Source: Verrucomicrobiaceae bacterium
GTDB taxonomy: Bacteria > Verrucomicrobiota > Verrucomicrobiia > Verrucomicrobiales > Verrucomicrobiaceae
DNA length: 64,000 nt
Assembly: GCA_016795365.1 (NCBI GenBank)
Contig: JAEUHN010000004.1
Location: forward strand, 62,001 to 126,000
Direction: 5' to 3'
Shown: positions 11,108 to 63,200 of the stretch, one piece after another
Layout: every line of letters starts with the position of its first letter
How positions within the stretch are numbered: the first letter of the stretch is position 1
The notes under the pieces: generated by a model
Told to the model about the DNA's origin: nothing
The model's input: only the letters and a program-made list of their open reading frames with translations
Database searches by the model: none
Program-made: the position numbers and the translations under genes

Positions 11108-11121
11108 ATCATCGCCTGACT

Positions 11122-11143: not shown

Positions 11144-11229
11144 GCTGTTTGATGAAGAGTTCACTGGTGAATTTGATGTTGGGTGGTTCCTCACAAGAAC
11201 AGCCGTATTCAATAAATATGGATTTTATA

Positions 11230-35300: not shown

Positions 35301-38300
35301 GAGCCTGACTCCAGTCCAAGTTTGAACGGACGATGTATTGCTAATCGTGACGCTTCCCGCTGGCGAGTAAAGAGCTGCACCCGTGAGGCTCAGGGATCCC
35401 GCCTTGTTGCTCGTCACATTGATCGTCGCCGTGTAGTAGTCATCTGTTGAGTCAGCGGGCGTTCCATTGTCGTCACAAGCACCTTTCGTCACAGTGATCG
35501 CCGTGATTGAACAGGCTGGATCGACGGTTACTGGATAATCCTCGACTTCGCCTTTCAAAACAGAAGCACCACTGAACCCAGGGTGAGAAGCACCTTCAGT
35601 GAGACGGAACCGAAGATACTTAGTGCCTGTCGTCGTTCCTGCGGGAGGCGTGAAGTTGAAAGTAAAGTTGTTCGTTCCTGCCACGCTCACTGTTTGTGTG
35701 GCCAGAGTTTCGTTCGCATCCGCCACATCGCCATCTCCATTCCAATCCGCGTAGGCAGCGATTCTCGCCGTGCCGCCAGAGATGTTGGCAAGGGCGGAAA
35801 CATAGACCGGAACGGTCACAGAAGCTGCACTACCAACCGAGATGACAGGTATCGAAAGGTCTTCATCGTCCGTGCCAGTGCTGTCGTCTGCGGTAGCGGT
35901 CGCGGTGGCCGGATCGACCAATTCCCCATCGGTAGCCACCGTGCCCATCCGCAGATCGGCATTGGCAAGTTGTGAGGCCGAAGCGAAGCCCGAGTAGTCT
36001 CCACTATCGTTCAAGCAAGGAGGCATCGCTAGATTCAATGCCTGATCGAGGTAACTCTTTCCTGTGGTGGTCAGATCAATCAACGGGTCAAGCCAGTCCT
36101 GCTCCAGCACTGGAAGGCCCGAGTTGGCCGTATTCTGCTGGGCCGAGTTCATGTGCAGGCCGAAATAAACACGACGTCCGTGTGTCGATGCTGCACCACG
36201 ACCCGACAATGCTCCGGGAGCATAGTAAACATAGACCGCATTGGTCCGAGTGCTTTGAGATGACGCATCGGCCCACAGGTATCCAGTTCCTTCCGTGTAA
36301 TAGGTCCCCGTCTCGAAAACCGGAGTGTAAGTCGGGGATGGATTGGAGAGATACCAGTTGGTAATCTGCACATTGGCAGTGCCGTTGTAGGCGCTCTCTG
36401 ACCAGTGCAAGCTCGTGGCACTGAACACCTTCATGCCCACGGCTGTTGGAGCCGTCATGACCATGACAGGCTTGACCACATCTCGAAGTGCCGCATCGAG
36501 GCTGGAGGTTGTGCTGCTGTAACAAGTCGCCGAAACGACAATCAGGTCATAGTTCGCCAGATTCACGGTCACTTCCGTGGCAGGAGCATAGACATCATAG
36601 ACGCCTAGCGTCGAACCCGTGGCTTTCGCAAGACGTGGACTGATCACACCAGGACCATAGATCGACTCGATGTATTTCATGAGCCCGTGATCGAAGGCCA
36701 TGCCATCCTGAGGCTTGGCTTCGCCACAAAGAAAAAGGATCTTACAGATCGGAGCAGGCGCAACAAAGCCGAAATCCACCGTGTTGTCGATGTTACCTCC
36801 TGTCGGCTCACCACCAGCGGTGAGTGTGATGATCGGACTCGTGGTCTCGGCTGTGGTATGAGGTTGCAATCCGTTGTCATTATTGTCCGTCTGATTGTCA
36901 GCATTGCTGGTCACCACGCTGCTCAGGTTCATCGTCGCCAGAGGTCCCGTCAGAGTGAAGTTCGATCCAGCGATTCGGACGGCATACTTCCCGGGCGGCA
37001 AACTACCGAACGAATAAGTTCCGGCCACCGTAGAGACTGTCGCGGTTGTGGTGGTCGCAATCGGAGTTTGTTCGGTGACGCCGATCGACCCATCACCGTT
37101 GGCATCTTTGAGCAAATTTACCGTGACGCCGTTGATACCGTTCTCACTGGTGTCTTTGACTCCATTGTTATTGGCATCATTCCAGACCAAGTTGCCAATG
37201 CCCAAGTCAGCTGCGTTCACTTGCACTGGATAATCTTCCACTTCGCCCTTCAGAGACGATGCTCCGCTGAAGACCGGGGCCGTAGCGCCCTCCGTTAGAC
37301 GAATGCGAAGATATTTGATACCTACAGTGGTGCCCACCGGTGGAACGAGATTGAAGGTAACGTTGGTCGTGCCCGCCGCTGCAACTGTTAGAGCTGTCTG
37401 CGTTTCATTGGTGTCAATTACGTCGCCATCACCATTCCAGTCCGCGAAAACGTTGATTCGCGAGGTGGAGCCGGACAAGTTACTCAGCACGGGTATCGTC
37501 ACGGGAACCGTGATCGAAGTTGCATAGCCAATGGTGAGAATGGGCAGCGTAAGATCCTCATCATCAGTTCCGGTCGTGTCATCCAAGGTGGCTGTGCCTG
37601 TTGTCGGGTTGGTTGTTTCAGCATCCGTCGCTGCGGTGCCGATCTTGATGCCTGCACTCGCCGCCTGGCTGGCCGAGGCAAAGCTCGGATAATCACCGTA
37701 ATCAGTGCCAGCGATTGTGACGATGTAATCCTCGACCTCGCCTGTGCCACCTGCTCCCGTCGGTGCCACGCCAGAAGTTGAATTGAGCCGGAATCGCATT
37801 CCGAGCGGCACTCCTAAAGTCGCTGTGGTTGGAACGGTAAAGCTGAGTGCTGCGGTAGTAGCAGCGTTCGCCACCGCTTGATTCGCCACCACTTGCTCCC
37901 CTGAGTCGGTCAGAACTCCATTGTTGTTGTAGTCGATCCAGACACTGAGATACGCCGAGGCCCCAGTCGCATTGGCAACAGGAACGCTGAACGAAGCCAC
38001 CTGTCCAGTGGTCAAGGTGGGAATCGTGAGGTCTTCATCGTCCGTCGATGTCGAGTCGTCAGCCGTGGCAGTTGAGTTTCCTGTGGTGGCGACTTCAACA
38101 TCAGCCACCGCAGTCCCCAGCCTCAAACTGACGTTCTTTGTGGCACTCGCCGATCCGAAGGCACTGAAGTCACCATAGTCCATGGTGGGAGCAGTAGCTA
38201 CAGTCACAAGGTAGTCTTCCACCTCGCCGTTGGCCCCCGCTCCCGTAGCCGCCACGCCAGTGGTGGAGTTGAGCCGAAAACGAATTCCTATCGCTGTCGA

Positions 38301-39262: not shown

Positions 39263-42200
39263 CTAATTCTGGGTCACAAACGTCTTGCCGCAGGCTTTGG
39301 GAGTGCAGATCTGAACCAAATAGTCCTCGACCTCCCCGTTGCCGACCACGCCAGACAGCCCAGGAGCCGCCGCGTTCGTCAGACGGAAACGGGCTGCCAC
39401 GTTACCCTCAAAAGCTACCGCTGGGACTGGCACTGTGAGGTCCACAGACAAGTCAGAAGCACCACTCGCGACGACCTGATCCGATACCACCTGCTCGCCT
39501 GCACCCATGACGCCATTACCATCGAAGTCGATCCAACCATTGATGTAAGCCGGACTGCCAGTGGTGTTTGTGACTTTGACTGTGATCAGCGAACTGCTGC
39601 CCATGATCATCGGCGAGAAAGTCACCCCATCTTCGTCATCCGTTCCCGCGGTATCATCTGCGGTCGCCGCAGCATTGCTCTGAGTGGCCGGGTCAGCATC
39701 AGGCGCACCGACTCCCATTTTCAAGCCTGCCACCATGGTGCTCGCCGCCGCCGGCAGAGACGACAGGTCACCATAGTCACGAGACTGCACTACAAGATCG
39801 TAGCTCTTGGTGGAAGCGCAGTTGTAAGAGTCGCGCACCGTCACCACGATCGGGTGACTCGCAGCACCCGAGGTCGCAGAACCACTAATAAGGCCAGTCG
39901 AGGTGTTGAAGTTGAGTCCGGTTGGCAAGGTGCCCGTGTAAGACCAAGTGTAAGGCGCATTGCCTCCAGATACCGTCAGAGGCTGTGAATAGCCGGGCGA
40001 ATACTGGATAGCGACGGCGAGGCTGGCTGGAGTGATTGTGATCGTGGGGCAGGAAATGGCGATGCTGTAGGCTTGGGTTCCAAAGCAGCCCTCACCATTG
40101 GTCACACGGACCACAATGTTTGAAGTGCCCGGCACAGTGGGCGTTCCACTGATCACCCCAGTGGCCGAACCCAGACTGAGTCCCGCCGGCATTGTGCCAC
40201 TATCCAAAGTCCAGATCCACGTCTGCGCCGGAACCGAACTACCCGCCAAAGTGGCTGTCAGCGATTGATTGTATGCTGATCCCACGCTTCCCGAAGGCAA
40301 GGTCGCAGGTGTAATCGTCACCGGTGGGCAGACCAACCCCAGAGCGTAGGTCTTGCTGGCCGGACAGCCTGAAGCATCTACCAAATTCATCGTGACTGGA
40401 TAAGACCCGACCGATGCCGTTGGTATTCCGCTTAGCGTGGCAGTGGAAGAATTGAAACTCAATCCCGCAGGCAATGGCGTCGCACTGTCGATGCTCCAGA
40501 CGTAAGGTGCCCGGCCCCCGGTCGCAGTGAATATCACCGGCGTCATGGCAGTGTATTGAGTCACATCAGCAAGAGCGGCTGGATTGATCGTGATCGGAGG
40601 GCATCCAATCGCAATCGTGTAACCCTGCGAGCCAGTGCAAAGATTGGTGTCCGTGGCCACCACCATAAAAGTGGAACTCTGCACCACTGTTGGTGTCCCG
40701 CTAATGCGAGCCGTATTGGCCGTCATCTGCGTTATTGTGAGCCCAGTCGGCAAAGATCCAATCACCGACCAAGTGTAAGGTGCTGTGCCTCCACTTGCCG
40801 TAAGAGTCGTTGTGTAAGGCTGGTCCTGGATGCCGTCGGGAGGTGCCCCCGTGATTACGACCGGCGGGCAGTTAAGCACCAACGTGTAACCCTTTGTGGT
40901 GAAGCATCCATCCTGGTTCTGCGCGCGCACCGTGATCGGATAGTTCCCTGGAATCGCAGCCACAGTGGGTGTGCCAGTGATGACCGCTGTAGCTGTGTTG
41001 AAGGTGAGCCCTGCGGGTAACGTGCCGGTCAGAGACCAGGTGTAAGTCTGCGCTGGAACGCTAGTCCCCGAGGTCGAAGCTGTGAAGGCCTGCGAATACG
41101 GAGCATACTGAGTAGCCAGGGCCACACTGGCCGGGGCGATCGCGATCGCCGGGCAGTTCACCGTGATCGGATACGCCGCATCCACCACACAGCCGAGGGC
41201 GTCACGAGCACGGATGGTCACATTGTAGGTAGCTGGCACAGCCATGGGGTTGCCACTCACGGTTGCCGTCGTGGAAGTTGCTGCGGCCAGACTCAACCCT
41301 GCAGGCAGACTGCCGCTTTGCAGAGCCCAAGTGTAAGGAGGTGTGCCGCCGGAAGCCGTGAGCGTTGCAGAGAACGGTGTGAACTGAGTGACAGGGCCGA
41401 TGCCCGTCGGATTGATCGCCAGCACTGGACATGGGCGGAGGCCAAAGTCGATCGTGTTGTCCGTCTCGCAATTGCTGAGGGCAAAGACCATACTATTGAT
41501 CGCCGTGCCGGCACCAGCAGGCTGGCTCGCCGCATTGTTGTCATTATCAATGCCGTTGTCAGCAGACACAGGCACCATAGAGGGCAGCATATAGGTGCCG
41601 TTCGGCGTCACTTCGATGAAGTAGTTGCCCGGAGTGTAAGTGAGGAAGCCAAAAGTGCCATCGCCCGCTGTCGTTGTTGTGGATACCACGGTATCGGCAT
41701 TCGCAGCCGTTCCTCCCACCGCATTGTCAGCGCCCGGATTCATGAGGCGCACCGTCAATCCCGAGATGCCGGCTTCGGCCGCGTCCTTCAGGCCATTCTG
41801 GTTGGCATCCGCCCACACGAGATTGCCCACACGAACTCCACTGTAGAGACCAAAGTCCACCGTCCAGTCCGTATTGGAATCTGTGTCGCCATCCGTCGTT
41901 GGCTCGGCTCCATCTGCCAGATTGATGATCGGGCTGATCAACGCCGATCCCACCGCCGCCTGTGAACCGTTGTTGTCGTTGTCCACACGGTTGTCGAGAG
42001 TCACCACCGTGCCGCCCGTCTTCTGATGCGAGGCAGGCGGAGTTACTTTAACGAAGTAGTTCGCCGGCGGAATGTTGGTGAAACTGTAGGTGCCTGACGA
42101 AGATGTCACCACATTTGATCCAACCTGCACATCATCGGCGGTGTTTGCCACATTGTCCGTGCCTGGACGGAACAACTGCACGGTGGCACCGGCAAGGCCC

Positions 42201-45200
42201 GTCTCGCCGGTGTCCTTGATAGCGTTGTTGTTGCAATCGTCCCACACAAGATTGCCGATGCCCATCGTCTTCACGTTGAAGGGATAGGAGTTCGTCGCCG
42301 TGCAGCCATACTTGTCCGTGACGCGGATCACCAGCGTCGTCGTTGCAATGCCTGTGGGCGTGCCACTGATCACACCCGCATTCGTGTCGAAGATGAGTCC
42401 TGGTGGAAGGGTGCCGCTTGTGATAGCATACACATAAGGCGCGTTGCCTCCCGTGGTAGTGAGCGTCTGGGTGTAGGCACCATTCACGTAGGCTGTGGGT
42501 AGCGAGGCAGGTGTAATGGAGATCGCGGTGCAACCCACCGTGATCGAGTAGAGCTGAGTGCCCACACAATTCTGTGCGTTGGTGGCGCTGATGGTGAAGT
42601 TCGCAGTCGTCTCAACGGTCGGCGTTCCGCTGATCACACCCGTGGAGCTACCGAGGCTAAGTCCCGTTGGCAAGGTGCCGGATGCCAGCGCCCAAGTCCA
42701 GGTCTGCACCGGCACTCCTGAGCCAGCCAACGTAGCCGTGAGAGTCTGAGAATAGGGCAAGCCAACAGAGGCCAATGGTAGACTCGTCGGGGAGATCGTC
42801 ACCGTCGGGCAATTAATGGTTAGGCTGTAGCCCTTGCTACCAGGGCATCCACTCGCGTCCGTGATCTTGACCGTGAAGTTATACACGCCTGGAGCAGCGG
42901 TAGGAGTTCCGCTCAAGGTCGCCGTTCCGGGTGTGAAGGTCAGTCCAGCCGGCAAAGGCGTGGCAGCATCGATACTCCACGTGTAAGGCGCAGTGCCTCC
43001 AGCCGCCGAGAAGACCACCGACGCCATGGCAGTGTATTGCGTGACGGATGACAAAGAGGCGGGGGTGATGGTCAGTGGTGGGCAACCCACCGACAGCGTG
43101 TAACTGCGATCAATGAAGCACCCGTTTTTGTCGATCGCACGAAGGGTGAAGGTGCGGCTTTCGATCAGCGAAGGCGTTCCGCTCAATGTCGCTGTAGTGC
43201 TCGTAGCACTGGCAAGCGAGAGCCCAGCTGGCAGAGATCCTGTCTGCACCGCCCAAGTATAAGGAGCCGTTCCGCCCGAAGCCGTCAGGGTTTGAGTGTA
43301 AGCGATGGTCTGAACCGGATCCGGCAGGCTTGCTGGAGCAAGCGCCACTGTCGGGCAACTCAGCACCAACGTGTAGCCTCTCGTGGCAAAGCACCCATCC
43401 TGGTTCTGCACGCGCATGGTAATGGGATAGTTCCCAGGAGCACTCACACCCGTTGGAGTGCCGCTCAATACACCCGTGCTCGTGTTAAGAGTCAGACCAT
43501 CCGGTAACGTGCCGGTCACACTCCACGAATAGGTTTGTGCGGGCACACCCGTGCCAGCAGTGCTGGCGGTGAAAGCCTGCGAGTAAGGCGCATAGGCAAC
43601 GGCAGGCGAGAGCGACGCGGGAGAAATGCTAATGGTCGGACAAGCAATGGTGAGCGTATATGCCTTCGTTCCTACACAACCAAAACTGTCCCGTGCTTGA
43701 ACGGTGAAGTTGTAGTTGCCCGGTGCTGCGGTCGGAATGCCAGAGATGGTCGCCGTGGTTGCGCTCGCAGAAGCCAGCGTTACGCCAGCGGGCAATGCAC
43801 CTGCAGAGATAGACCACGAGAAGGACGAAGAAGCCCCACCCGAAGCGGTCAGGGTCTGGGAGAAGGATTGATACTGAGTGACTGACGCCAGGGTCGCTGG
43901 GGTGATCGCAATCGGAGGGCAGGCTCGCACTCCAATATCAATCGTGCTCTCGACATTGCCTGTGCCCGAAGAACCCGCCTCTGTGCACGGCGACAGCGCA
44001 AAGACCATGCTCGTGATCGCCGTGCCAGCACCTGCGGGCTGAACCCCGTTGTTGTCATTGTTCACGCCATTGTCCGTCTGCACTGGCGACAACGCCGTGA
44101 GCTGATAGGTCGAGTTGGGAGTGACGCGGACGAAGTAGTTGCCAGACGTGTAAACCGTGAAGGCATACAGACCTGCGCTGTCCGTTGTCGTCGTCGCAAG
44201 CACTGTGTCCGCCGCTCCTGCTGTGCCGCCCACGGCATTGTCAGAACCCGGATTCATGAGTTCCACCGTCAGTCCGCTCACGCCGAGTTCGGAGGCCGAC
44301 TGGTAGAGACCATCTCCTGACGAATCATTCCACACCAGATCCCCCACCGTGAACGCGCTCCACAAGCCAAAGTCCACCGTCCAGTCCGTCTTCGCGTCGG
44401 CATCGCCATCCGTCGTCGGCTCAGCACCGTCAGCGAGATTGATGATCGGGCTGTAGAGCGGTGTGTTGGCTCCACCAGGTTGTGAACCGTTGTTGTCGTT
44501 ATCAATGCGGTTGTCGAGCATGACCACCGTTCCACCCGTCACGCGGAAGCCCGCCGGAGGCGTGACTTTCACGAAGTAGTTTCCAGGGGGAATGCTTGTG
44601 AAGTTGTAAGCCCCCGACACTGGCGTGACGATGCTGCTGCCCACGACCACGTCGTCAGCCGTGTTCACCGCATTATCCGCACCGCTGCGATAGAGCTGCA
44701 CCGTGGCACCTCCGATACCCACTTCGGTAGCATCCTTGATCCCATTGTTGTTACAATCATTCCACACCAAGTTGCCGATGCCCATGGTTCGGATGTCGAT
44801 CGTGTAGGCCTTGGAAGCCGTGCAGTTGTTGCTGTCGGTCGAAGTGAAAGTGACGTTGTAAACACCCACGGGAGCGGTGGGAATGCCACTCACCACACCC
44901 GTTGTCGGATTCAATGAGATGCCCGCAGGCAGGGTCGGAGTCACCGACCAGACGACCGCACCCACCGAGCCCGTGGACACCAAGGTCTGCGAGAAATTCG
45001 CTCCATGGTAGGCGACAGGGAATGATGCCGGCGTGATGGTAATCGGCGGGCAACTGACGGCCAGCACGTAGGGCTTGGTTCCGACGCAACCGAGCGCATC
45101 GCGAGCCTGCAACGTGATGTTGTAGCTGCCAGCGGCTCCACTTGGTGTCCCCGCCAGTTGTGCTGTGGTGCTGCTAGTTGTCGTCAACGTGATGCCCGTG

Positions 45201-48200
45201 GGCAAGGTGCCACTTACCACTGTCCAAGTGTAAGCAGATGTTCCACCCGAAGCTGTGATCGAACCACTGTTGTAAGCAGTGCCAAGTTCAAGGCCGCCAA
45301 GTGAGGCTGGATTGATGGCAATCGCCGGACATGGGCGGAGACCAATGTCGATCGTGTTGTCGGTTTCACAGCCACTGAGGTTGAAGACCACCGAATTGAC
45401 GACCGTGCCTGCGAGGCCGGGCTGACTTACGCCATTGTTGTCGTTGTCCGTCTGGTTATCGAGGTTCACCGACACGCCGGAAGGCAGCCCGTAGGTCGCA
45501 TTGGTGCCCACACGCAGGAAGTAGTTCCCCACAGTGTAAACCAGGAATCCATACTGCCCACCAGAGGCCGTAGTGGTCGTCGCCACAACGGAGTCTGCAT
45601 TGAGTCCTGTGCCACCCACGACGTTATCCGCTCCTGGGCTCATGAGATCGACAGTGATGCCATCAACCCCCGTCTCAGCGGTGTCTTTGAGGCCATTGTT
45701 GTTGGCATCGTGCCACACCAAATTGCCCACGCGAGTTCCACTCCAGAGACCAAAGTCGATCGTCCAGTCGGTATTCGCATCCGTGTCACCATCCGTTGTT
45801 GGCTCGGCGCCATCGGCAATGTTGATGAGCGGACTGAACAACGGCGCACCAAGGGCGGACTGCGCTCCATTGTTATCATTGTTCACCTGGTTATCGAGAG
45901 TGACGGGTGTGCCACCAGACTTCTGATGCGTCGAAGGAGGCGTCACCTTCACGAAGTAGATCGCCGGAGGAATGCCAGCGAAGCTGTAGGCTCCCGACGA
46001 GGTGGTGGTGAAGTTTGATCCCACCTGAACGTCATCAGCCGTGTTGACGAGGTTGTCTGCTCCCGGACGGAAGAGCTGCACCAAGGCCCCCGACAGACCG
46101 GCGTCCCCCGCATCAAAGACACCGTTGTTGTTGCAGTCATCGAACACCAGATTGCCGATACCCATCGACTTCACCACCAGAGGATAGGAGCGATTGCCCT
46201 TGCATCCATAGTTGTCAGTCGCCTCAATGACCAGTGTGACGCTGGCAGTCGCAGTCGGGGTGCCCGTGATGGCACCCGTGCCTGTGTTAAAGGCCAGGCC
46301 TGAAGGCAGCACTCCGCTGATGATGGCGTATGAGTAGTTCGGCGTTCCCCCTGAAGCCGAGATCGTCTGAGAGTATGAAGCTCCCACATAACCCGTGGGT
46401 AACGAAGTCGGATTCAGCGTGATCGTAGGGCATGAGATCGTCACGCTCATCGCTTTGGTGCCTAGACATCCTTGAGCATTCATTGCCTGCACTACGAAGT
46501 TGAACGTTCCCGGCGTTGTTGGAATGCCACTGAGGATTCCGCCGCTCGACATGGTCAACCCACCGGGCAGGGCACCTGACGACACCGTCCACGACCATGT
46601 CTGAGCAGGAACAGCCGTGCCACTCAGCGTCGCGCTGAACGACTGCGTGTATGTTGTGCCCACTGTGCCTGCGGGCAGCGGAGTCGAAGTGTTAATCGTC
46701 ACCGTGGGACACTGCACCACCACCACATAGTTCTTCGATGCAGGACAACCCGATGCATCGACGAGCTTCACATTGAAATTGTAGCTTCCGGGTGTCGCCG
46801 TTGGCGTTCCGTTCAACGTTGCAGTGGCGGAGTCAAATGACAGACCAGCAGGCAGCGGCGTCGCATTGTCAATGCTCCAAGCATAGGGCGTGCGACCGCC
46901 TGATGCGCTGAAGACCACCGAGGCCATGGCCGTGTATTGCGTTACTGAAGTCAGCGGTGAGGCCGGATTGATCGTGAAGGCAGGACAGCTCACGGCAATG
47001 GTGAAGCCACGCGATCCGACGCAGCCCTTGGAGTCCGTCGCATTGATGGTGAAGGTGCTGCTCTGGACCACGGTAGGCGTGCCGCTGAGCACACCGGTGA
47101 CCGGATCAAGACTGAGGCCTGTGGGCAGCGAGCCTGTGACCGACCATGTATAAGGCGCGGTGCCGCCACTCGCCGTCATCGCCGTGCTGGTGTAGGCAAC
47201 GTCCTGGATTCCTGCAGGCAGCGAATTCGGACTGACGGCAACATTCGGGCAGTTCAGCACGAGCGTGTAACCCTGTGAAGTGAAGCATCCATTCGCATCC
47301 TGCACCCGCACCGTGATGGGATAGTTGCCCGGTGTTGAAGCTGATGAGGGTGTGCCGCTTAGAACTCCACTCGACGTGTCGAATGTCAGACCTGCTGGCA
47401 GGACTCCCGTCAGACTCCAGCTGTAAGTCTGCGCAGGCACACCTGTGCCTGATGTCGAAGCAGTGAAAGTCTGTGTGTAAGCCACATACTGCGTAGCAGC
47501 GGGAAGAGTGGCAGGTGCCATTGACAAGGTTGGGCAGCCAATTGTTATCGAGAATCCCTTGGTTCCCACACATGAATAGGCATCCGAGGCTTGCACTGTG
47601 AAGTTGTAGGAGCCAGGCACAGCCGTCGGATTGCCACTGACTATGCCTCCACTCGATATCGTGAGCCCAGCAGGCACGGAGCCGCTCACCACGCTCCAGG
47701 TGTAAGGCCCATTTCCGCCTGACGCCACCAAGGTGATCGGAGTGATGGGCGTGTATTGGACCATGGAAGCGATCGACGTGGGCGAGATAGTAATCGTCGG
47801 ACAAGGAGAGAACCCAAGATCCACCGTGAGATCGATGTTTGAGTCACCAGGTATGGAATTGACCGCAAAGTTCACCAGCCCCAGTGTCTTGCCAAAGTTG
47901 GTCTTGCCAGCTCCGAAGTGCACGGCCCCGAGGTTCGCATACGTGCCCGTCACCGAGACAAGTTCCGCGAGTGTATTGGCGCTCAGCACCTGTCCACTGC
48001 CTGTGCCGGTTGGATCGAAGAAGCCGTAGAACTTCCCGCCCAGACGATCATAGGACAGACTGTTGAAGGAGTTCGCCGCCCACGACGCATAGCCCGTGGT
48101 AGTGACCGCCGGAGTGCCGCTATAGAAGTTGGCCAGAGAGGTGTAGCTGCGTCCCACGATTCCCGTGTCCGTGGCGTTGTTCTCGATCGTGTAAACGGTG

Positions 48201-51200
48201 CTACCGACGAGTTCGATACCCTTGAGTTTACCGAGGTTTGTCACACCCGTGCCCGTGAACGGGCTGGCAGTGTTCACGTAGGTGCCGGTCGCGGTCACCA
48301 GATCACTCAATGAGCCCGCGGTCACCACATTGCCCGAGGTCAGCCAGGCGGTGAATGTAGAAGTGGCTGGATCATGGGCGAGGCCCTTGATGCTGTTGGC
48401 CGCATACGACGCCGCACCCGTAATGGTGGCCAATGGATTGCCACCGTAGTAGTCGTTCATCGTCAGGTATGAACGACCCACGATGCCCGTATTCCCTGCA
48501 TTATTCTCGATGGTGAAGACCTGTGCGTCATCGCTGTGCGCATCGTAACCAAGCTCGGTGCCCGGACGGCTCGTCGGCTCGCCGCCAAGAGCGAGCGAGA
48601 TGATGCCACTGCTCACCCCCGAGGTGGCGGCACTGGCCACGTCGATGCCATTTTCGTCGGTCGCATCGTCCGTGCCGTTGTCCGTGCCTGCTCCGACCAC
48701 GGAGAAGTAGTTGAACAAAGGCTTGCCGCTGGCGAACTCGGACGAGGGAATCTTCACGTAGTAGTTGGCCGCACCCAGGTTGCTAAACATGTAGCGACCG
48801 CCGTTGGCCGTGGTCGTGCTCGACAACGCGGCTCCCCCACCCTGCAGCCACAACTGCACTACCACGCCATCGACGCCCTCGCCGTTATCATAGCGACTGT
48901 TCGCGTTGGCGTCTCTGAAGACTACGTTGCCAATGCCAACGACGGCCGGCAGAATCTGCACAACGTAATCTTCCACCTCACCGCTCACCGTGTCGTCTCC
49001 CGTCGCCGAGCGTCCCGTCGCAGCAGACAAGCGCAAACGAAGTCCAAGGTTGGTGCCCGTAACCGCCGAGGCAGGCACCGGAATCGAGAGCGAAAGGGTT
49101 CCGTTGGTTGTTCCCGTGGCCACGTTCACATCGGTGGCAAACTGCTCGCCCGCATCGAAGACGCCGCTGTTGTTGAAGTCGATCCAGCCACTGACATACG
49201 CGGTCGCTCCCGAGCCATTGTTGACCACCACCTTGATCGCCGCCGTCTGGCTTCGGCGAAGGGCAGGAATCGTCACGCCGTCTTCATCGTCAGGGGTGAG
49301 ACCCGCTATATCATCGCCCGTGGCCGTCGCATTCGCTGCACCCGAAGCTTCTGGATCAATCGCCGCACCGAGCTTCAGCGTTGCGTTCACCAACGAGCTT
49401 GCCGCACTGACCCCAGAGAAGTCACCATAGTCGCGACCAATCACCGTCAAGGTGTAGGCCTGGGTGGCAAAGCAACCGACGTTGTCTTGCGAGCGCACCG
49501 TGATCGGGAAGCTTCCCGGCATCACATTGGGCGTGCCGCTGATCACACCCGTTGTGCCATTGAGCGCCAGCCCCGAAGGCAACGACCCGATGGTGAGGGA
49601 GTAAGTGTATGGCGCATTGCCGCCGCTTGTGGTGACGGTCGCCGAATACGGCACACCAGTGGTTGCCGTTGCCAGGGTCGCAGGACTCATCAGCAACGTC
49701 GGGCAGTTGATCGTTAGGGTGAAGTTCTGGTATCCAGGACAGTTGTTGGCATCCACCACCTTGACTCGGAATGTGTAGTTTCCAGGCGCAGCCGCCGGAG
49801 TGCCGGAAATCAGTCCGCTGGTGCTCAATGTCAGTCCTGCTGGCAGAGCATTGCTTCCCGTATCAAGCCCCCACGTGTAAGTCTGCGCAGGAACCGCAGT
49901 GCCACCTGTTGTAGCGGTGAGCTGCTGGCTGTAAGAAGCGAATTGTGTTGCCGATGGTAGAAACGCCGGGCTGATGGTGATGGGAGGGCAGCCAATCCCA
50001 AGCGTGTATGTCTGCACTCCAAAACAGTTGTTGGAATCCACCACCCGAACAGTGAAAGTCTGGCTCTCGATCGTCGTCGGATTGCCACTTATCAGTCCGG
50101 TGCTGGAGTTCAACGTGAGCCCGGCAGGAAGCACGCCGACGCTCACACTCCAGGTGTAGCTCTGCGCAGGCACGCTGGTGCCGGTGGTGGTTGCAGTGAG
50201 TTGTTGCGAATAAGGCGAATACTGTGTGCCTCCTGGCAGAGTCGCCGGTGTAATTGTAATCGTGGGGCAGACGACTTCGAGGGAGAAAGCCTTGGTTGTC
50301 GAGCACCCGTAGAGATCTGAGACCTGCACCGTGAAGTTATAGATGCCCGGTGCGGCAGTGGGATTGCCGCTGATGATACCTGTTCCTGAATTGAGCGAAA
50401 GTCCGGTCGGCAGGGCACCAACGGCAGTTCCCCAATTGTAAGGCACGGTGCCTCCAGTGGCAGCAATCGTCGCAGAGTAGCTGGTGTATTGCGTAGCCTG
50501 CGGCAATGGCGAAGCCGTCGTGATGGTCATCGTTGGGCATGAGACGACAACGGTGTAGGCTTGAGTCGTCGAGCAGTTGCTGGCGTTTGCTACCCGGAGA
50601 GTGAAGTTAAACGTTCCTGCGGAAGTGGGAGTGCCGCTGATGAGCCCCGTGCTGGTGTTAAGCGTCAAGCCATTCGGCAGCGCCCCCGTTGGCACTGACC
50701 ATGTCCACGTCTGCGCTGGCACTCCCGTTCCACTGAGAGTCGCCGTCATGGCCTGTGAGTAGGCCGTCCCGACTGTGCCCGCAGGAAGCGATGTGGGTGA
50801 GATGGATACCGTATTGCAAGCAATCACCACCGCGTAGCTGCGGTTCCCCGGACAGCTGTTCGCATCCGTCACCTTTACATTCACGGTGTAGCTGCCCGGT
50901 GCAGCAGTAGGTGTGCCGCTCAAGGTTGCAGTGGCCGCATTGAAGGTGAGGCCTGCTGGCAGCGGAGTCGCACTGTCAATGCTCCAGGTATAAGGCAGAG
51001 TGCCTCCTGATGCACTAAAGACGACATTCGTAATCGCGCTGTATTGAGTGAATGGACCCGCGGATGCAGGCGAAAGAGTGATTGTAGGGCAACCAACGGT
51101 CAAAGAATAGGCCACCGATCCCAAACAGTTATTCGCATCACGAGCTTCGATGGTGAAGGTGTAGATGCCAGGGGCAGCGGAGACAACACCACCCAGGTTG

Positions 51201-54200
51201 ACCGTGGTCGCTGTGGCTCCACTCAAGCTCAGTCCACCCGGCAAGGTGCTCCCCGAAGCCAGTGAGATCGTATAAGGAGCCGTGCCTCCACTGGCCGTGA
51301 GAGTCTGCGAGTAGCTGGCAAACTTGACTGTTGCTGGAAGCGGTGAACCGGGTGCCAGACTGATCACGGGACAATTCACCACCATGGTGAAGGCCTTGCT
51401 GCCCACACAGCTCTGCTGGTTGGTCGCCGCGATAGTGAAATTGTAGGTGCCCGCGACTGTGGGTGTTCCAGAAAGCACTCCCGCCGGGCTCAAAGTGAGT
51501 CCGGTGGGCAAGGTCCCCGTCGTCTTCGTCCACGAGTAAGTCTGAGCGGGCACACCCGTGCCCGCAGTCGTTGCGGAGAAGCTCTGCGAATAGGAAACAC
51601 CCGTCGTGCCAGTTGGTAGCGGAGAGGCTGTCGTGACGGTGATCGTGGGGCACTGGATCGCGATGGCGTAATTCTTCGATGCCGGGCAGCCCGAGTTATC
51701 GACCAACTTCACGTTGAAGTTGTAGCTCCCTGGAGCCGCCGTCGGCGTTCCACTGAGCGTGGCTGTTGTCGTATTGAAAGTCAGCCCAGCCGGCAACGGT
51801 GTCGCACTGTCAATGCTCCAGGTGTAAGGCGTGCGGCCGCCACTGGCACTGAAGACCACCGAAGTCATGCTTGCATACTGCGTGATCGTCGTGAGCGGTG
51901 ATGCAGGGTTGATGGTAATCACCGGGCAGTCGATAGCGATGGTGTAGCTGATGTCCTTGAAGCAGCCCCACTTGTCCGTCGCACGAATGGTGAACGTGCG
52001 GCTCTCGATCGTGGTCGGCGTGCCATTGATGCGGAAGGTCGTGCTCGAAGGCGTGCTCGTGGACAGACCTGCGGGCAAGGTGCCGGTCACCGACCAGGTG
52101 TAAGGAGCCGAACCACCCGAAGCCGTGAGCGTCTGGTCATAAGCGCTGTCCTGCGTGCCATTCGGCAAGGTTCCTGGTGCCACGTTCACTGAAGGACATC
52201 CAAGCACGACAGTGTAATTCACCACCGACGAGCATCCGAGTGCATCAGTGAGTGTGACCGCGATCGGATAGCTGCCAGGAGCCGCGGTTCCATTCGGTGT
52301 GCCCGTGATCGTTGCGGTCGTCGAGGTGACCGCGTTGTTGAACGTCAGACCGCCTGGCAAGGCTCCACTGATCGACCAGTTGTAAGGCGACACCCCACCA
52401 GACGCCGTGAGTGTTTGAGTATAAGACAGGTAGTGAGTCGAATTCCACGAAGACGAAGCCGCAGAGGCCAGCGTAGGACAGCCACGAAGACCGAAGTCGA
52501 TTGTGTTCTCGATGTTGGTGGTGCCTATGGAGCCCGGCTCACCATTCGCAGTGAGGGTAATCGTGGGGCTGTCCACCGGTTGGTTCACACCGCCCACCTG
52601 CACACCGTTGTTGTCGTTATCGACACCGTTGTCAGAAGCAGAAACGACCGCACTGGCCAAAGGCTGCGCCGCAGGTGGTGTCACGCGAACGACATACTTC
52701 CCAGGCGGCACCACGAAGCTGTAAAGTCCGACGCCAGCAGTGGTCGTTGATGCACTCGTATCATCAGCAGTGCCTTGCAAGTTATCAGCCCCAAAGCCAA
52801 TCGCCGTCACCGTCACGCCATTGATGCCCGCCTCCGTTCCACTGTCGTAAGTGCCATTGTTGTTCAGATCATTCCAAACCAGATTGCCCAAAGTTATTCC
52901 TGCCAGGACCGGCGCAGACAGATAATCTTCGACCTCACCGGAATCGGTGAGTCCATAACTCAGCAGGCCCGTCGTCTTGCTCAGTCGCACGCGAACACCG
53001 ACCTGCGAACCCACTGTCGCAGCCGGAGGCACGGTGACGTTCACATTGAACGTGGTGTTATTGGCACCATTGGATACCAGGACATCATTGGCATGCTTCT
53101 CGCCGACATCTTCAAAGCTACCGTTGTTGTTCCAGTCAATCCAGAGGCTCATGAAAGCCGGTGATCCCGTCGAGTTCGTAGCACGCACGCCGATGGTCGT
53201 GCTCGCGTCCATGACAAACGCAGGCAATGTCAGAGAGTCTTCATCAGCGCCATCCGCAGTCGCTCCAGAACTTGGCTGGCCGTCAAGCTCGCCATCCACT
53301 GTAGTTCCCAGCAGCAGCCCCGATACGATCAGGTGTGCGGCACCTGAGTCCGATTGCACCGTCTTGTAATTCCCTGCTCCTGTGCCAGCACTCGTATCGG
53401 GCAGATCCCCGTAATCGCAGCCACTGTGGAGGGCGACCGTGATCGCGTAGTCTTCCACCTCGCCCTTGAGACCGGAGGCACCATTGAAAACTGGCGTCGT
53501 AGTTCCTTCGATCACCACGAAACGCACGTATTTGGTGCCCAACGTTGTGTTAGCCGGAGGAGTGAACGTAACGGCCGCATTGTTGGTGCCTGCAACCAGG
53601 CTCACGGGTGCGGCCACACCTCCAGTGCCTGTGACGACCTCATTGGTGCCAGAGACTGCGTTGTCGCCATTCCAGTCGGCCCACACCATCAGGCGACCGT
53701 TGGCGACAGCACCGGATAGCGTCACAGGAATCGTGAATGAAGTGCTGAGCCCCGGCGAAACAGTGGGCATGGTGAGATCTTCATCATCGGTGCCCGTCGT
53801 GTCATCCGCTGTGGCAAGTCCCGTGCTTGGGTTGCTTGCTTCAGCGTCAGTAGCTGCGGTGCCGATCTTGATTTCGGTGCTGGCCAACTGCATCTTGGAG
53901 AGGAAGCCAGGATAGTCACCATAGTCGAGCCCCACCGAGATGCTGATGGTGTAGTTCCGCAAGATCTCGCACAGATTCACGTCGCGAGCACGAAGGGTAA
54001 ACGGATACGAGCCCGCAGCCGTTGGTGTCCCGGTGATTGCACCGGTCGAGGGAGCAAGTGTCAGCCCTGGTGGCAACGAGCCCACGGTCACAGCGTAGGC
54101 GTAGGGTGCCGAACCGCCCCCGGCAGTGACTGTTTGATTGTAAGCGAGACCGACGATGCCGCTTGGCAAGGAAGCAGGTGCGAGCGTCAGAGGAGGACAG

Positions 54201-57200
54201 ATCTGAATCGTGTAGAATACGGAGCCTGCGCACCCCGTGGCATCCGTGGCAGAGAAGGTCACGCCCACTCCAGTGCCGTTAGCTGCCGTAGGCGTGCCAG
54301 TAATCGCACCCGTTCCAGTATCGAAAGTGAGTCCGGGAGGTAACGAACCGCTGAGGATGCCATAAGTGTAAGGGGCCGTCCCATTGCTCGCTGTGATTGT
54401 CTGGTTGTAGAGAGATCCCACTGTTCCCACCGCAAGGGTCGCCGGACTGAAAGCCAGCACCGGGCACACGCGGAAGTTGCCACTCCACGTGCCAGAGCAC
54501 GTCGGGTAGCTCGCACTCGTCGCGGTGACAGTGATCGCATACAAACCAACAGGTGATGCACTCGTGGTGGACAATGCTCCGGTAGCCGAATTGATCGTCA
54601 TGCCCGCAGGTGGCGTGCCGCCGAGCGTCCAGGTAAACGTGCCACTGATCCCGCTCGCACTCGGATTGCTAGTCTGTGTGTAGGCCGTGCCGAACGTGCT
54701 CTGCAGCAACGATCCTGGTGTGACGGTGATCGTTGGGCACACGGGTGTGATGGTGTAGCTCGGTGACACGCCGACGCAGCCATTAGCATCCGTGGCCTTC
54801 AGCGTAAACGTTGCCGTCGTTGTGCTGTTCGGTGTGCCCGATAGCACACCCGTTGTTGGGTTGAGCGTCACCCATGTTGGCAGCGCTCCGCTATTGATGC
54901 CAAAGGTGTAAGGAGCCGTGCCACCCGATGCCGTCGCTGTTTGCGAGTATGCGGTGCCCACCGTTGCAGCCGTGCCCGGCAGAGTGACGGTGATGATCGG
55001 ACACACGCGGAAGTTGCCACTCCACGTGCCAGAGCAGGTCGGGTAGCTCGCACTCGTCGCGGTGACGGTGATCGCATACAAACCAACAGGTGATGCACTC
55101 GTGGTGGACAATGCTCCGGTAGCCGAGTTGATCGTCATGCCCGCGGGTGGCGTGCCGCCGAGCGTCCACGTAAACGTGCCGCTAATCCCGCTCGCACTCG
55201 GATTGGTCGTCTGTGTGTAAGCCGTGCCGAAGGTGCTCTGCAGCAGCGATCCCGGCGTCACGGTGATCGTTGGGCACACGGGCGTGATTGTGTAGCTCGG
55301 TGACACACCGACACAGCCATTCACGTCCGTGGCCTTCAGCGTGAACGTTGCTGCCGTTGTGCTGCTTGGTGTTCCCGATAGCACACCCGTTGTTGGGTTG
55401 AGTGTGGCCCACGTTGGCAGCGCTCCGCTGTTGACGCTAAACGTGTAAGCAGCTGTGCCACCCGAAGCCGTCACTGTTTGCGAGTATGCGGTGCCCACCG
55501 TTGCAGCTGTTCCCGGCAGAGTAACGGTAATCACCGGACACACGCGGAAGTTGCCGCTCCACGTGCCGGAGCACGTTGGGTAACTCGCACTCGTCGCGGT
55601 GACGGTGATCACATACAAACCAACAGGGGATGCACTCGTGGTGGACAATGCTCCGGTGGCCGAGTTGATCGTCATGCCCGTGGGTGGCGTTCCGCCGAGC
55701 GCCCAGGTAAACGTGCCACTGATCCCGCTCGCACTTGGATTGGTCGTCTGTGTGTAGGCAGTGCCGACGGTGCTCTGCAGCAACGATCCTGGTGTCACGG
55801 CGATCGTTGGGCAGTTGGTGCTAAGGCTTAGCACTTTGCTGCCAGCACAGCTGGTCTGGTTCGTCGCAGTAAACGTATAGTTGGTCACCGGTGTCACAGC
55901 GCTCGGCGTGCCGCTGATGACTCCTGTGCTTGTGCCCAATGTCAGTCCTGCGGGCAGCGCGGGACTCACACTCCACGTGAAGGTCTGCGCTGGCACGCTT
56001 GTGCCCGACGTCGTCGCGGTCAGTGTCTGATTGTAGCCAGTGCCCAGCACGCCATTGGCCAGTGAGGTGTTGTTGATCGTCACTGTCGGACACCCAATCA
56101 CGATTGTGTAGGGCTTCGAAGCTGGACAGCCGTCGCCATCTACCAAGCTGATCGTCGCGCTGTAGCTGCCGGGAGCAGCCGTCGGGTTCCCACTTAGCAA
56201 TCCGGCGCTTGAAAGCGTCAGTCCGGCAGGCAGTCCGCTGGCGCTCCAGCTCACGGTGCCGCTCGTGTTCGTCGCTGTGGCTGTCACAGTGGTGATCGGC
56301 GTGTATTGCGTGAACGGTCCGATTGTGGCCGGACTAATCGTTATCGGTGGGCAGCCCACACTGATGGTGTAGTTGATCGTTCCATTGCAACCATTGGCGT
56401 CCGTGGCTGTGATCGTCACCGTGCGGCTCTCCACCTTGGTTGGCGTGCCAGTAATCGTCGCGGTCGTGCCAGTCACAGAAGGGGTCCAAGTCAGGCCAGC
56501 AGGCAGTGTGCCGGCCAATGCCCAGGTGTAGTTCGCCGTTCCTGCACCTGCGGTAAACGTCAGTGTGCTCATCGCGGTCCCGCGTGTCAGGCTCAAGGGT
56601 GATGCCGCGCTCGGTGTAATCGTGATCACTGGGCACACGCGGAAGTTGCCACTCCACGTGCCAGAGCACGACGGAGAACTCACACTCGTGGCGGTGATGG
56701 TGATCGCATACAGTCCGACAGGTGATGCACTCGTGGTGGACAATGCTCCAGTGGCCGAGTTGATCGTCATGCCCGTGGGTGGCGTTCCGCCGAGCGTCCA
56801 GACAAACGCGCCGCCGATCCCGCTCGCACTCGGACTTGTCGTCTGTGTGTAAGCCGTGCCGACAGTGCTCTGCAGCAACGATCCAGGTGTCACGGCGATC
56901 GTTGGGCACACGGGCGTGATCGTGTAGCTCGCTGACACCCCGACACAGCCATTCGCATCCGTGGCCTTCAGCGTGAACGTTGCCGCCGCTGTGCTGGCCG
57001 GCGTTCCCGATAGCACGCCCGTTGTTGGGTTGAGTGTGGCCCACGTTGGCAGCGCGCCGCTATTAAGTGCAAACGTGTAAGGAGCCGTGCCACCCGATGC
57101 CGTCACCGTCTGCGAGTAAGCGCTGCCTACCGTTGCAGCTGTGCTTGGCACGAAGACTGAAATTGTAGGGCAAGCACGGAAACCGAAGTCAATGGTGTTT

Positions 57201-60200
57201 TCCACATTGTTTACGCCTGCTGTCCCTGGTTCGCCGAGGACTGACAGAGTGAAAGCAAACGAAGTCGAGGCCGAGCCCTGTCCTCCAGACTGCACACCAT
57301 CGTTATTGTCATTGGCCCCGTTGTCGGTGCCTGAGCTGCTACTTGCCAATGGATACGTGCCATTCGGGATGACCCTCACCTTGTAACTACCCGCCGTATA
57401 AACACTGAACGAATAGGCACCAGAAACATTGGTGGTGGTCGTCCTTGCCGGCACAAAAGAAGCACCAGAGCCATTCAGAAGTTCGACTGTAAGTCCGCTG
57501 ATACCTGACTCACCCACGTCTTTGACGCCATTGTTGTTTGCATCATTCCACACGCAATCCCCCACGGTGAATCCAGTGAAGAGACCAAAGTCGATGGTGA
57601 GATTCGTGTTCGCATCCGTATCGCCATCCGAAGTCGACTCTGCGCCTGGATTCAAAGCAATCACCGGACTGAAGAGCGCCGTGGCAGGACCGCCGGGCTG
57701 GGCACCGTCATTGTTGTTATTGACGTTGTTGTCAGCGGCTGAAGGAGTGCCTCCGGTGAGCGGATAAGTCGCGGGAGGCGTGACTTTGACGAAGTAGCTT
57801 CCGGGGAAGAGACCCGAGAAGAGATAGGCACCGGACACCGACGTCACGATCGACGTTCCCATCTGCATGTCATCAGCTGTATTGACCAAACCGTCTGCAC
57901 CTGGCTGGAACACCTGAACGGTCACACCACCAATGCCAAGCTCGCCCGTATCTTTAATGCCGTTGTTATTGGAATCGGCCCAGACCGTATCGCCGATGCT
58001 CACATTTCCTTCACAGAGGTAAAGATCGTCCACGACAATCGGGCCGCTGTTGGCACCGCCGGCAAGGATGATGCTTGCTTGATCAATCTGGGCCGCCGTG
58101 GCACTCGGAGGAATGCTGAAGCGGAACGTGAATCTGCGCCAGTTGGGCTTCGTTGCATTGCCGGTCGCTTCGGTCCAGCCATTGTAGTCCGCAGATGCGA
58201 ACTTGCTAGCCGGAGTTCCAGACCATTTGGCCTGAGTCGCCACGTAGTATTGATAGTTCACTCCCAGCACCGTGAAGATGTTGGCACCGGCCTGAAGATT
58301 GAGGCTGAAAGATGTGTCTGCCGTGCTTGCCGTATCGGCCCAGAGGCCAATCTCGTAGCTCTTGCCCGGCTTGAGAACGGAACTCCAGGCACCGCCGCCC
58401 GCAGCTCGGAGATCCAGACACGAATTGGTGCCCTGGAAAAGCATATAACGTTTGCCACTGTGCGCCTTGGCACTTTCCACCCAGGTAACCTTGGATCCCG
58501 TCACCGTGGCCAGCACCTGCATGTTCGCTATTGGAGTGTTGAACGGACTAATGCCATTGGTGCCTCCTACCCACTGAAGACTGTTAACGGATGTGCCGAA
58601 GCTTGTGCTCGCCCCATTGTAACCCAACACGGCGATGGGATTGCCATTCGTATTGGCCAAACCCGTGTTTTCAAAGCTGTAGTTGTCGAACAAGTCAAAG
58701 GCGTAGCAGGCATCGGGATTGAGAAAGCCAAAGTCCACCGTCGTGTCGCTATTCGCGTCGTCACCATCGACGCCCACAGCAGGTTCAGAGCCTGGAGCCA
58801 AAGTGATCAAGGGGCTTCTAACCGGTGCTCCGCTGGAAGTTTGCTGACCGTTGCTATCGTTATCCACACCATTGTCCAAGGCGACAACTGTCGTCGCTCT
58901 CGGATAGCTCGCTGGCGGATTCGGGATGCGGACATAGTAGGTGCCAGGCACCAAGCCCTGGAACAGGTAGTTACCGTTGAGATCGCTGGTAACTTCGGAA
59001 CCAATGCTGACATCATCACCCGAACCATTCTCTTCAAGACCATTCACGCCTGGTGACCACAGCTGAACTACTACACCTGGAATGCCCAAATCATTGGCAT
59101 TCCTGATCCCATTGCTGTTCTGATCCAGGAAGATCGTGTTACCGATGCGCAGAACACCATCTTCAAAGTCGCATCCGGTGATCGTTTGGTTGTTGGTCAG
59201 TGAAAGAATGATGCTGTTGGGATGAACTCCGTCAGCATCCGCAAAAGGCGCATAGCCACTCAGTGAAGTATGAGTGATCTCATAACTGCCTGTGGGCACG
59301 CTTGTGAAGGAGTAATCACCAGTGCTGTTCGTTGTGCTCGTCCGGAGAGTATCGTCAGGCGTAGCCAGCACTCCATCAGGACCGGCAGAGCGTAAGCTCA
59401 CCGTCACGCCCACCATCGCCAGTTCGCCTGCCTGAGCGATGCCATCTCCATTCCCCGACACCACTCGCCCAGAGATCGAGTTGAACTGCGACTGATAGCC
59501 GAAGTTTTTGCCCGTCACCGCAGCTGTAACGCTAGTGATTGTATTCTGGTGGTCCTTGGTGGCATCAGGATCCCCCGTCTGCACATAGCCAGCAGCCAGC
59601 AGCGGCGCACTTTGAACCACCAGCGTAACGCGCGCCCCAGTGGGCACACCCGTAAAGCTGTAGTTGCCGCTTGTATCGGTGCTGGCCGTGAGCACGTAGT
59701 CGATGACGCTGTCCACGTTGCTATCCACCCGCGCTTCGACAACCACGGAAGCAATCCCAGCTTCGGCGCCGTCTATGACACCATTGCCAGCGACACCGCC
59801 GCCTGTGCCATTGTCATTCCATACCCGACCACTCACGCTGTAAACAGCAATGGCGGTAGATTTGTAGCCAAAGTTGAAGTTGGAGACTGTTCCCCCGCTG
59901 GAAATAGCAGTCGTTGCGATGCCATCGAGCGGTGCCACCGGATCAGCCGTGGGCGTGGTGTTGTAGCTGGCTGGCAGCGAAGAAGTAGCCACACGCACCT
60001 GGAATGTGTCATTGGCCAATCCATCGAAGCGATACGATCCATCAGAGGCAGTCGTGGTGGAACTCAAGAATGTCGTGGTATCACTCGCGTATAGCTCCAA
60101 CACTACATTGGAAAGCCCTTGTTCACTGCTGCCGCGCGCTCCGTTCCCATCGGCATCATTGAACACCACACCTGTGATGGCCCCATTGTAGGCGCGGCCA

Positions 60201-63200
60201 AAGTTGAATCCCTCCAGTTCCCAGCCGCCCAGAACAAACAGTGAATAGCTGCCAACCGTCGTCAGCCGCGTCATGCCACTCGGGAAGTCGGGGTCTGCGG
60301 CGTTGAAACTGATCGTGTAGCTCCCAGTCGGCACCAGAGTCTCATATTCACCGGCCGCATCCGTGACCAGGGTGCGAGTGATGGCATTCCCAGAAAGGTC
60401 AGTGCCCACAATCGTCACCGTGATACCCGGCAGCCCCGTGTCAGCACCATCCATGTAGCCGTTGCCAATCTGATCGAAGAACACATAACCCTGGACCACC
60501 CCCATTTCAGCAAAGCCAAAGTCAGCGGTGAGAACTGAGCCCCCTGGGGCGAGGATGACCGCAACGGTTTCTCCATTGGTGGAGAGCATGGTCTTGGTCC
60601 TGCCCGCATTCGGGCTTGTTGAAGGCGCTACCACGCTCTGCTCGTCCACTTTCACCACGTAGTTACCAGGCGGAAGACGTGTAAAACTGTATGCGCCACT
60701 ACTGTTGGTTGTGGTGGCAGCAAAGGTTAGCTCAGTGGCATCGATCGCACCGTTGCTATTGCTGTCGATGAACAGGAAAACTGTCGCATTAGGCACGCCG
60801 ACCTCACCTGCATTGCGCACACCATTGCTATTCGTGTCATAGAAAACCAGATCACCAATGACGCCAGTGTGATCGAACCCAAAGTTGTTCCCCAGGCTCT
60901 TCTGAGACGCCACTACTGTTACCGGGCGAACCGCAGCCCCACCGCTCACAAAGATCATACCCGCTGGCGCGCTGGACTGAACAACTGACACCAAGTAGGC
61001 ACCAGGATTGAGCCGTCCAAACGTGTAGACTCCGTCGCCATCTGTCGTGGCAGCCCGGACCAGCAGATCACCCGCATCCACCGAACCATTGCCATTCACA
61101 TCGCGATAGAGTTCCACCAAGACACCACTGATGGGAGCCTCAGTGCTCGCGATGATGCCATCACGATCGGAATCAGTCCACACCGTGCCGGCTATCGTGG
61201 CACCGGACGACACAGGTGCCGGGGTAAAGATGCCAAAGTCAGCATCATCAATCGCCGAACTGTTCGCCGGCAAGGTCCGCTGCAGCACCGGCGTCGTCGT
61301 CATGATCCAGTCCGCCGGTAGCGTCGTGAGATCGACTTTGACCGTCCAGGGGCTGCCGCCATTGGCATCCAGACCGAACACACGATAGGCCCCGCTGCCA
61401 TCAGTGATGGCGCTGAAGCTCTTGCTGCCGCTCGTGACCAGCACCTTGACACCCGCGACTCCAGGCTCGCCCGCGTCGCGAACACCGTTGGCGTTGGTGT
61501 CGGCAAACACCAAGTCACCAATGCTGCCAGTGAGGCCCGTCTGCACCAGATTCGAATAGGTGGGCGGGATGGCGACCGCAGAGACAGGGCTTCCTATCGC
61601 CTCAAAGTCCGTGTAGGCAGAAAAGAAGCTGGTGGGACTGATGAACTGCGTGCATCGCGCATTGAGTGTATTCACCGTCCACAGCCTGTTAATGCTGGTG
61701 GAAGTGCCCGCGGCACCCGTGGAGACATACATCACGCCGTCCAGGCCGAAGGTCATGCCTTGAACATTCGTCAGGTAAGTCGTTGAAGTCCCAATGGTGA
61801 AGCGGCCGACATTGGTCACTGCACCCGTTGTCGGATCGATGATGACCAGGCGGTCCAGGTCGTCGATGCCAGCGGTAGAATCATTCGCAATGGCATAAAG
61901 TTTTCCGCTTCCAGGATCGAAGGCAAGATCATCAAGATTGTAGAGCGGCGTGGACAGCGTGTTCGTCGCTACAATGAGGTAATCAACTCCGGTGCCAAAT
62001 GCATCGACCACATGCGCTCCAGTAACGGGATCAATCTTGAACAAGCAGTCCAGCAAAGTATTGGCCGCCGTTGCATCTTCACGGCGATGAATGGCATAGA
62101 GATCGCCCGAGACCGGGTCAAAGGCCATGCCCCGGATGTCCGCCACTGTGATGCTGCCCAGGCCGCCCACCATAGGATTGGCCGCCGTTACAGCCCTGCC
62201 GATGGGCGACATGTAGCTCGATGATGGAACGCCCGTCAGCTCCACGGCATCGATCTGTTCGTAGCCAGACTTAGTGGTGCGCACAATCACCTGATCGACC
62301 AGGTAACTTGTCGCCGGAGTCGTGAAGGTGTAATAGCCCGGAGCAATGGTCGAGTCGGCGGTGATCGACATCACATGCACGGTGCCATTTGGCTCGACCA
62401 GCTCGATACCTGTCACAAAGGGTGCGGTATAGGTTTCACGCACACGCACGCCAGTGGCATACACAGGAGTAGTGAATCCGAGCCTGATGAATTCAGGACT
62501 GTTCGTATTGGTGGCAGGCGACCAGGCAGTCTTGATGTCACCCGCACTCATGGTGTCGGGAGCGCCCAACGCCTGAGCTGCCGACCAGTCGGTGGAACTA
62601 TACTGGCTGCTGTAGCTCACCACCCGCGAAGCCCACTGGCTGATCGCGGCGGAAGTTACGCCTGGGGTTGTGGCGACGAGCATATCGGCTCCCGCTCCTG
62701 TGGCCGCATCTTGATCAACCCCATACAAGGCGCTGCCATCGGGACTTTGCGCCACGGCACGAAGGTATTTCGTGCCGGTATTCCCCGCATCAACCACGGA
62801 ATTGCCGGAGATCTTGAGCAGACGGTCGGCAGTGCCTCCGCTGGTGGAATTGGCGATCGCATAGATGCCGCGGAATTCGTTGGTCTGAATGCTGGCGACG
62901 TTGTCGATATTGTTGAGCTGGCTGCCACTATTGACACTGACCACAAAGGTAAGGGGTCGAGTGACGAGCACGGAGTTCGACACTGCGGCAGGAAAACTGG
63001 TCGAGCCGGCCAAGAAGGAACCGGAAGAAAACTTGACACTACCGGGCAGAGTGCCGGCATTGACTCGATAGGTCCAGGTAAACGTGAGCGACCCGCCCGC
63101 AGAAATGCTGCCCGAGGCTGGTGATGGCCCAGTAAGCAAGGTAGCAGTGGCGGCATTCGAAGGCGTGACGGTCAAGCTTGGCGGCACGATTCCTGAAATG

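Follow-up and report, generated by a model that had tools for sequence, protein, structure and literature searches.

The window analysed here is a stretch of 64,000 nucleotides (C1:62001-126000) from a Verrucomicrobiaceae genome of 6.74 Mb in 55 contigs, and the sequence of contig C1 beyond the window was also examined, with 178 kb analysed. Four consecutive, co-oriented giant open reading frames were observed at C1:43123-153213, which span ~110 kb and encode 36,580 residues, or 7,895-10,029 aa each (table 1). Using a profile that was built from these proteins and seeded with five units only, we found 122 PIG domains, distributed as 43 in G2, 37 in G3, 28 in G4, and 14 in G1. The Pfam family He_PIG (PF05345) was recognized in 10 stretches of a 904-aa slice at 305.3 bits against a cut-off of 24, and in the scan of this genome itself single B units, as defined below, exceeded the He_PIG cut-off; the Pfam scan of G2 covered the gene up to its final 510 bases. 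Two cysteine columns were occupied in 117/122 and 116/122 of the PIG domains, in all four giants, and this sequence pattern suggests that each PIG domain may contain one disulfide. Hydrophobic N-terminal stretches were present in all four giants, as judged by simple hydropathy only, and no cell-surface anchor family was recognized in any of the four. Upstream of G1, at C1:153602-159689, we observed a small PEP-CTERM protein and a 1,801-aa SdrD_B/He_PIG protein with a related C-terminal domain.

Table 1. Giant genes and repeat features at the locus (numbers without C1 are positions in the window)
Feature	Position	Strand	Details
G1	C1:129526-153213	co-oriented with G2-G4	7,895 aa; outside the window
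G2, gene with the repeat	39263..64000; C1:101263-129414	(-)	9,383 aa; 5' part past the window; Pfam He_PIG, SdrD_B, GEVED
G3, next paralogue	11334..39155; C1:73334-101155	(-)	9,273 aa
G4	2..11212 (5' part); full gene C1:43123-73212	(-)	10,029 aa
Full unit A+B	54471..55007	(-)	179 aa; 91.4% to next unit; domain limits mapped
Second full unit A+B	55008..55544	(-)	94% aa to first
Half unit, domain A only	55545..55813	(-)	269 bp at 92%
Three unrelated PIG domains, spacer between array and dispersed pair	55835..56635	(-)	PIG domain mapping
Dispersed A+B pair	56640..57172	(-)	domains 56681-56908 and 56918-57172; 87% over 511 bp
Block common to G2 and G1	54716..55813	(-)	versus C1:132289-133386; four domains, 1,098 bp, 94.1%

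The repeat unit in G2 consists of two He_PIG domains, A (273 bp) and B (264 bp), which together make 537 bp or 179 aa. A preliminary description of this DNA had reported landmarks that recur in steps of 537 bp at 54471, 55008, and 55545, with a further copy at 56640, and these positions were all confirmed. Its reading of three tandem units was correct for two of them: unit 1 and unit 2 were 91.4% identical over the full 537 bp (E = 1.5e-220), whereas the third copy (C1:117545-117813) matched unit 1 only over the 269 bp of its A domain, at which point the similarity ended. In particular, unit 2 and the 537 bp from 55545 were only 62% identical, and identity past the 269 bp was at the background level. 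Thus, the tandem array has the order A-B-A-B-A, or 2.5 units. The term "near-identical" proved too strong for these copies, close as they are, given that identity was 91% between the two full units, 92% in the half unit, and 87% in the dispersed copy. The repeat had also been placed inside the third gene, which holds when the genes are counted from the left of the window; G2 is the second in transcription order, and the close copies in the neighboring G1 (C1:132289-134988) had been missed. As G2 lies on the minus strand, the order of the copies is reversed in the protein, in which the dispersed pair comes first. Tandem Repeats Finder gave no match in the array because the 537-bp period exceeds the longest period of this tool (500).

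Such identity was rare within the cluster. Among the 6,990 unit pairs of the four giants that were retained from 7,381 possible pairs because they overlapped at 150 sites or more, the median nucleotide identity was 48.8% and the 99th percentile was 65%, with 49 pairs reaching 80%; the copies are indeed far more alike than other PIG units, as had been stated. When the 116-kb cluster was compared with itself at the nucleotide level, 24 matches had a length of 120 bp or more and an identity of 80% or more, and every one of them fell within the G1 and G2 copies of the A/B module. The next-best match (76.9%) was a diverged module copy in G1, and the first match off the module was at 75.8%. Duplication of the whole gene as the source of the likeness between G1 and G2 was rejected, because the matches of at least 80% were confined to the A/B module. 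G3 and G4 were searched for internal repeats (threshold 150 bp, 85% identity), and none was found. Moreover, 93 of the 99 adjacent domain pairs shared less than 50% amino acid identity, and next-nearest pairs reached up to 99%; the strongest exceptions were in G1, where two B domains adjoin each other in two instances (88% and 80%).

The A/B module was also observed in the adjacent giant G1, ~15.6 kb from the G2 array, and the top repeat of the whole cluster was an inter-gene one, in which C1:116716-117813 of G2 matches the G1 part of the common block. The closest of the 122 PIG units likewise pair across genes: G1_6701 and G2_3959 were 97.3% identical in nucleotides and 100% in amino acids, and G1_6789/G2_4047 and G1_6343/G2_4047 were 96.0% identical each, compared with 88-95% for tandem neighbors within G2. 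Counted as differences, the collinear inter-gene comparison gave 62/1,074 sites (5.8%), the G2 tandem neighbors 68/810 (8.4%), and the G1 tandem copies 43/537. Exact inter-gene tracts of 133, 125, and 121 bp also speak for exchange. The AU test, for which the hypotheses were picked after the identities had been seen and in which most tree branches were weakly supported, rejected monophyly for three sets: the three A copies of the G2 array (p 0.020), its two B copies (p 0.002), and the G2 B copies as a whole (p 0.0004). For the four G2 A copies taken together, monophyly was not rejected (p 0.136). Inter-gene transfer of the module is therefore well supported by both the identities and the incongruent trees, and the duplication or conversion that had been claimed for G2 is supported with the amendment that it appears to have taken place chiefly between G1 and G2 rather than solely within G2. 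Diverged A and B copies (71-78%) are present in G1 as well, a hint that G1 has had the module for longer than G2, and the direction of transfer was perhaps from G1 to G2.

Taken together, these results are best explained by lineage-specific amplification of a stalk module, which homologous recombination carried from one of the adjacent paralogous giants to the other, and we put the probability of this reading at roughly 0.7. If the array had instead arisen by tandem duplication within G2 alone, the G1 copies would be separate or older matter; such an origin accords with the head-to-tail placement of the units at exactly 537 bp and with the AU result for the four G2 A copies, whose monophyly was not rejected, but most units of the G2 array have their nearest relatives in G1, and the tandem clades were rejected for both A and B, which makes duplication confined to G2 improbable. 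Whether one copying event sufficed is a finer question. The sliding identity of the shared block (60-bp steps) was mostly 0.85-1.00. The block is collinear over its whole length, with clear ends, as would fit a ready-made four-domain block that was copied once between the genes and was not converted later. The run-length tests on silent sites only (B, p 0.058; A, p 0.31) and the heterogeneity test of the collinear pairs on synonymous changes only (p 0.16) were not significant, again in keeping with a single event. However, with all polymorphic sites the run-length tests gave p 0.0004 for B and p 0.017 for A, and the four collinear domain pairs differed unequally (26, 7, 11, and 18 differences; p 0.003). 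In addition, the pair at the edge of the block, G1_6610/G2_3868, were not mutual best matches, and G1_6343/G2_4047, with an exact run of 121 bp, lie off the register of the block. We thus regard a single copying event as a real possibility that we do not favor, and repeated later conversion after the transfer as suggestive and plausible.

Two further explanations would dispense with exchange altogether. An assembly artifact, in which repeats were collapsed, expanded, or mis-joined between G1 and G2, deserves attention in an assembly of this many contigs, since exact runs can confuse short-read assemblers and those between or within the genes reached 133 and 125 bp (G1 versus G2, in the block), 128 bp (within G1), and 121 bp (G1 versus G2, in the other register). 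Nevertheless, the longest exact repeat within G2 was only 59 bp, so that collapse within G2, the site of short-read misassembly suspected in the preliminary description, is not specifically indicated; the close copies differ mutually by 3-19%, and there was no N in the 178 kb. The frames remain open over 9,383 and 7,895 aa, although this is a weak point and no proof against misassembly because the unit length is a multiple of three. On balance, we consider an artifact quite unlikely. The other explanation, that the units owe their likeness to strong protein selection rather than to recent shared descent, would draw on the low median dN/dS (0.19 for A and 0.15 for B). Against it, synonymous sites were alike too: dS among the copies was 0.10-0.34 for A and 0.10-0.61 for B, compared with a saturated background (pS median 0.71, 5th percentile 0.62), and the other PIG units in the same proteins were not kept alike. 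Likeness at synonymous sites points to common descent and not to protein constraint alone; convergence by protein constraint was ruled out on this ground, and we give selection without shared descent almost no credence. The copies thus share descent and are under purifying selection, with the protein maintained. These dS values also indicate that the copies are not strain-young, and "recent", as they had been called, is true only in a relative sense.

Under the favored reading of exchange between the two giants, A+B would be a stalk module of two immunoglobulin-like domains in a giant protein that is secreted or displayed at the surface, and the module was probably amplified in this lineage inside the two adjacent paralogues. 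Homologous recombination between the co-oriented genes would then have moved the four-domain block across and probably patched it further, and such recombination of module copies may add, move, or patch A+B pairs. The exchange would stay in frame since the reading register does not differ between the two copies, and it would alter the length or composition of the stalk while leaving the gene unbroken. We infer recombination as the agent, a surface stalk as the structure, and length change as the effect. A protein model of A-B-A-B-A consisted of five beta domains, all-beta throughout (mean pLDDT 87.5, pTM 0.56). The top Foldseek matches of this model were mostly cadherin and immunoglobulin bead chains at low TM-scores, and the grappling-hook protein GhpA of Aureispira appeared lower in the list, also at a low TM-score.

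We addressed the distribution of the repeat by analyzing related giants. In relatives, six orthologous giants all lacked internal repeats that reach 150 bp at 85% identity (best 77.6%), and the same search found none in the giants of G014, G004, and G008 or in the giant on contig C20 of this genome. A unit match was sought in one other genome of the same genus, which is only 87% complete, and none was found. Among 22 of the 43 named loci found, which served as a repeat control, 2 had one internal repeat each (150 bp at 85%). Thus, a high-identity array common to two adjacent genes was seen only here among the He_PIG giants compared. The closest named matches to the module were in Verrucomicrobia MAGs at 45-53% protein identity. 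There, A-B alternation recurs at offsets of 528, 531, and ~1,060 bp, with a period of 528-534 bp. Since alternation near 530 bp is common in the named loci, the two-domain unit itself is ancient, and the novelty lies only in how alike its copies are. Separately, two tandem giants on contig C63 of relative G011 (L102-L105) had internal repeats of their own (86.6% over 493 bp; 81% over 821 and 1,093 bp).

The G2 N-terminus was matched in 12 of 59 family-group genomes, this genome included, and the G1 C-terminal domain in 45 of 59, with many of the latter matches in open reading frames of more than 5,000 aa. Of the 11 relatives in which the G2 N-terminus was matched, nine were examined, all except G019 and G067. 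In eight of these (G061, G034, G059, G072, G024, G014, G004, and G008), a complete open reading frame of 2,490-12,114 aa had a G2-type start and G4-type sequence toward its end; in the ninth, G070, the frame runs off the contig. In G067, the N-terminal frame is 3,909 aa long, and the match to the C-terminus falls in another frame of 388 aa on the same contig, which does not amount to an intact single gene. One member of the tandem giant pair in G011 both starts and ends like G4, and the other starts weakly like G1. In this genome, the G2-type start and the G4-type end are in different genes, and the end of G2 (window 39263-40000) has a GEVED domain and a short tail without the TIGR02597-like C-terminal domain of G1, G3, and G4; in the 399-aa C-terminal piece of G1, the TIGR02597 likeness was below the cut-off. 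For the ends to lie apart in G2 and G4, either an ancestral gene may have been split or the relatives may have lost the middle genes. A conserved neighborhood around the single giant of the relatives was not found, with only two weak or partial matches to the present region among the flanking proteins of six regions.

More tentatively, tandem giants might form a recombining set, in which in-frame exchange at stalk modules would swap N-terminal heads and C-terminal tails and so build chimeras. The joined G2 and G4 ends in the relatives fit head-and-tail exchange of this kind as far as sequence comparison goes, and we consider the proposal unlikely enough to be offered only as a working idea. 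If it were true, A-B recombination between G1 and G2 would delete ~15.6 kb and fuse the G1 head to the G2 tail in frame.

Comparison with known systems placed the module in familiar company. Like the He_PIG giants of Verrucomicrobiota and their relatives, the module has domains that match He_PIG, and A-B alternation is common among those proteins. According to the accessible parts of two reports, Periscope Proteins (SasG, Rib, Sgo_0707, and others) have tandem folded domains that exceed 50 residues in length and 80% in identity, and their DNA identity is expected to drive in-frame changes of repeat number in the stalk (PMC8201768, PMC9704523); the corresponding search rule calls for tandem repeats of more than 50 residues at 80% identity or more (PMC8201768). 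With 94% amino acid identity over 179 residues, units 1 and 2 of G2 fall within this rule when it is applied without T-REKS, which concerns the sequence rule only, as the class described in those parts centers on length variation among strains. Unlike the Periscope Proteins so described, only 2.5 of the many stalk units are alike here and neighbors are mostly divergent, and the exchange appears to run between genes. The nearest genomic parallel that we found is giant1-5 of Apilactobacillus kunkeei, which the consulted sections of the source describe as genes that follow one another and encode repetitive extracellular proteins thousands of residues in length, under purifying selection and with much recombination (PMC12863079), although the domains are unrelated and the phylum is another. 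The A. kunkeei giants have alpha-helical repeats and a C-terminal DUF5776 (PMC12863079), whereas a Pfam search of the 399-aa C-terminal piece of G1 returned no family and hence no DUF5776. Recombination in A. kunkeei was inferred, in the same sections, from comparison of strains (PMC12863079), but here it would have occurred between neighboring genes of one genome. In the accessible portions of the literature on giant genes, repeats, and He_PIG, we found no account of the A-B array, although it may have been described elsewhere. The array represents a familiar type of stalk module whose amplification is specific to this lineage, and exchange between adjacent giants is its noteworthy part.

If adjacent giants do trade stalk modules in frame, then the growth, lengthening, and head swaps of proteins of ~10,000 residues become testable, and such giants need not be treated as single, slowly diverging genes. 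Duplication of A and B together leaves immediate neighbors unlike each other, which suggests why the copies need not misfold. The locus also carries a caution, in that identity within a window can mislead when the closest copy sits in the next gene. On a larger scale, the autocorrelation of G2 showed a weak higher-order period of 3,900 bp, which suggests an older duplication of larger domain blocks.
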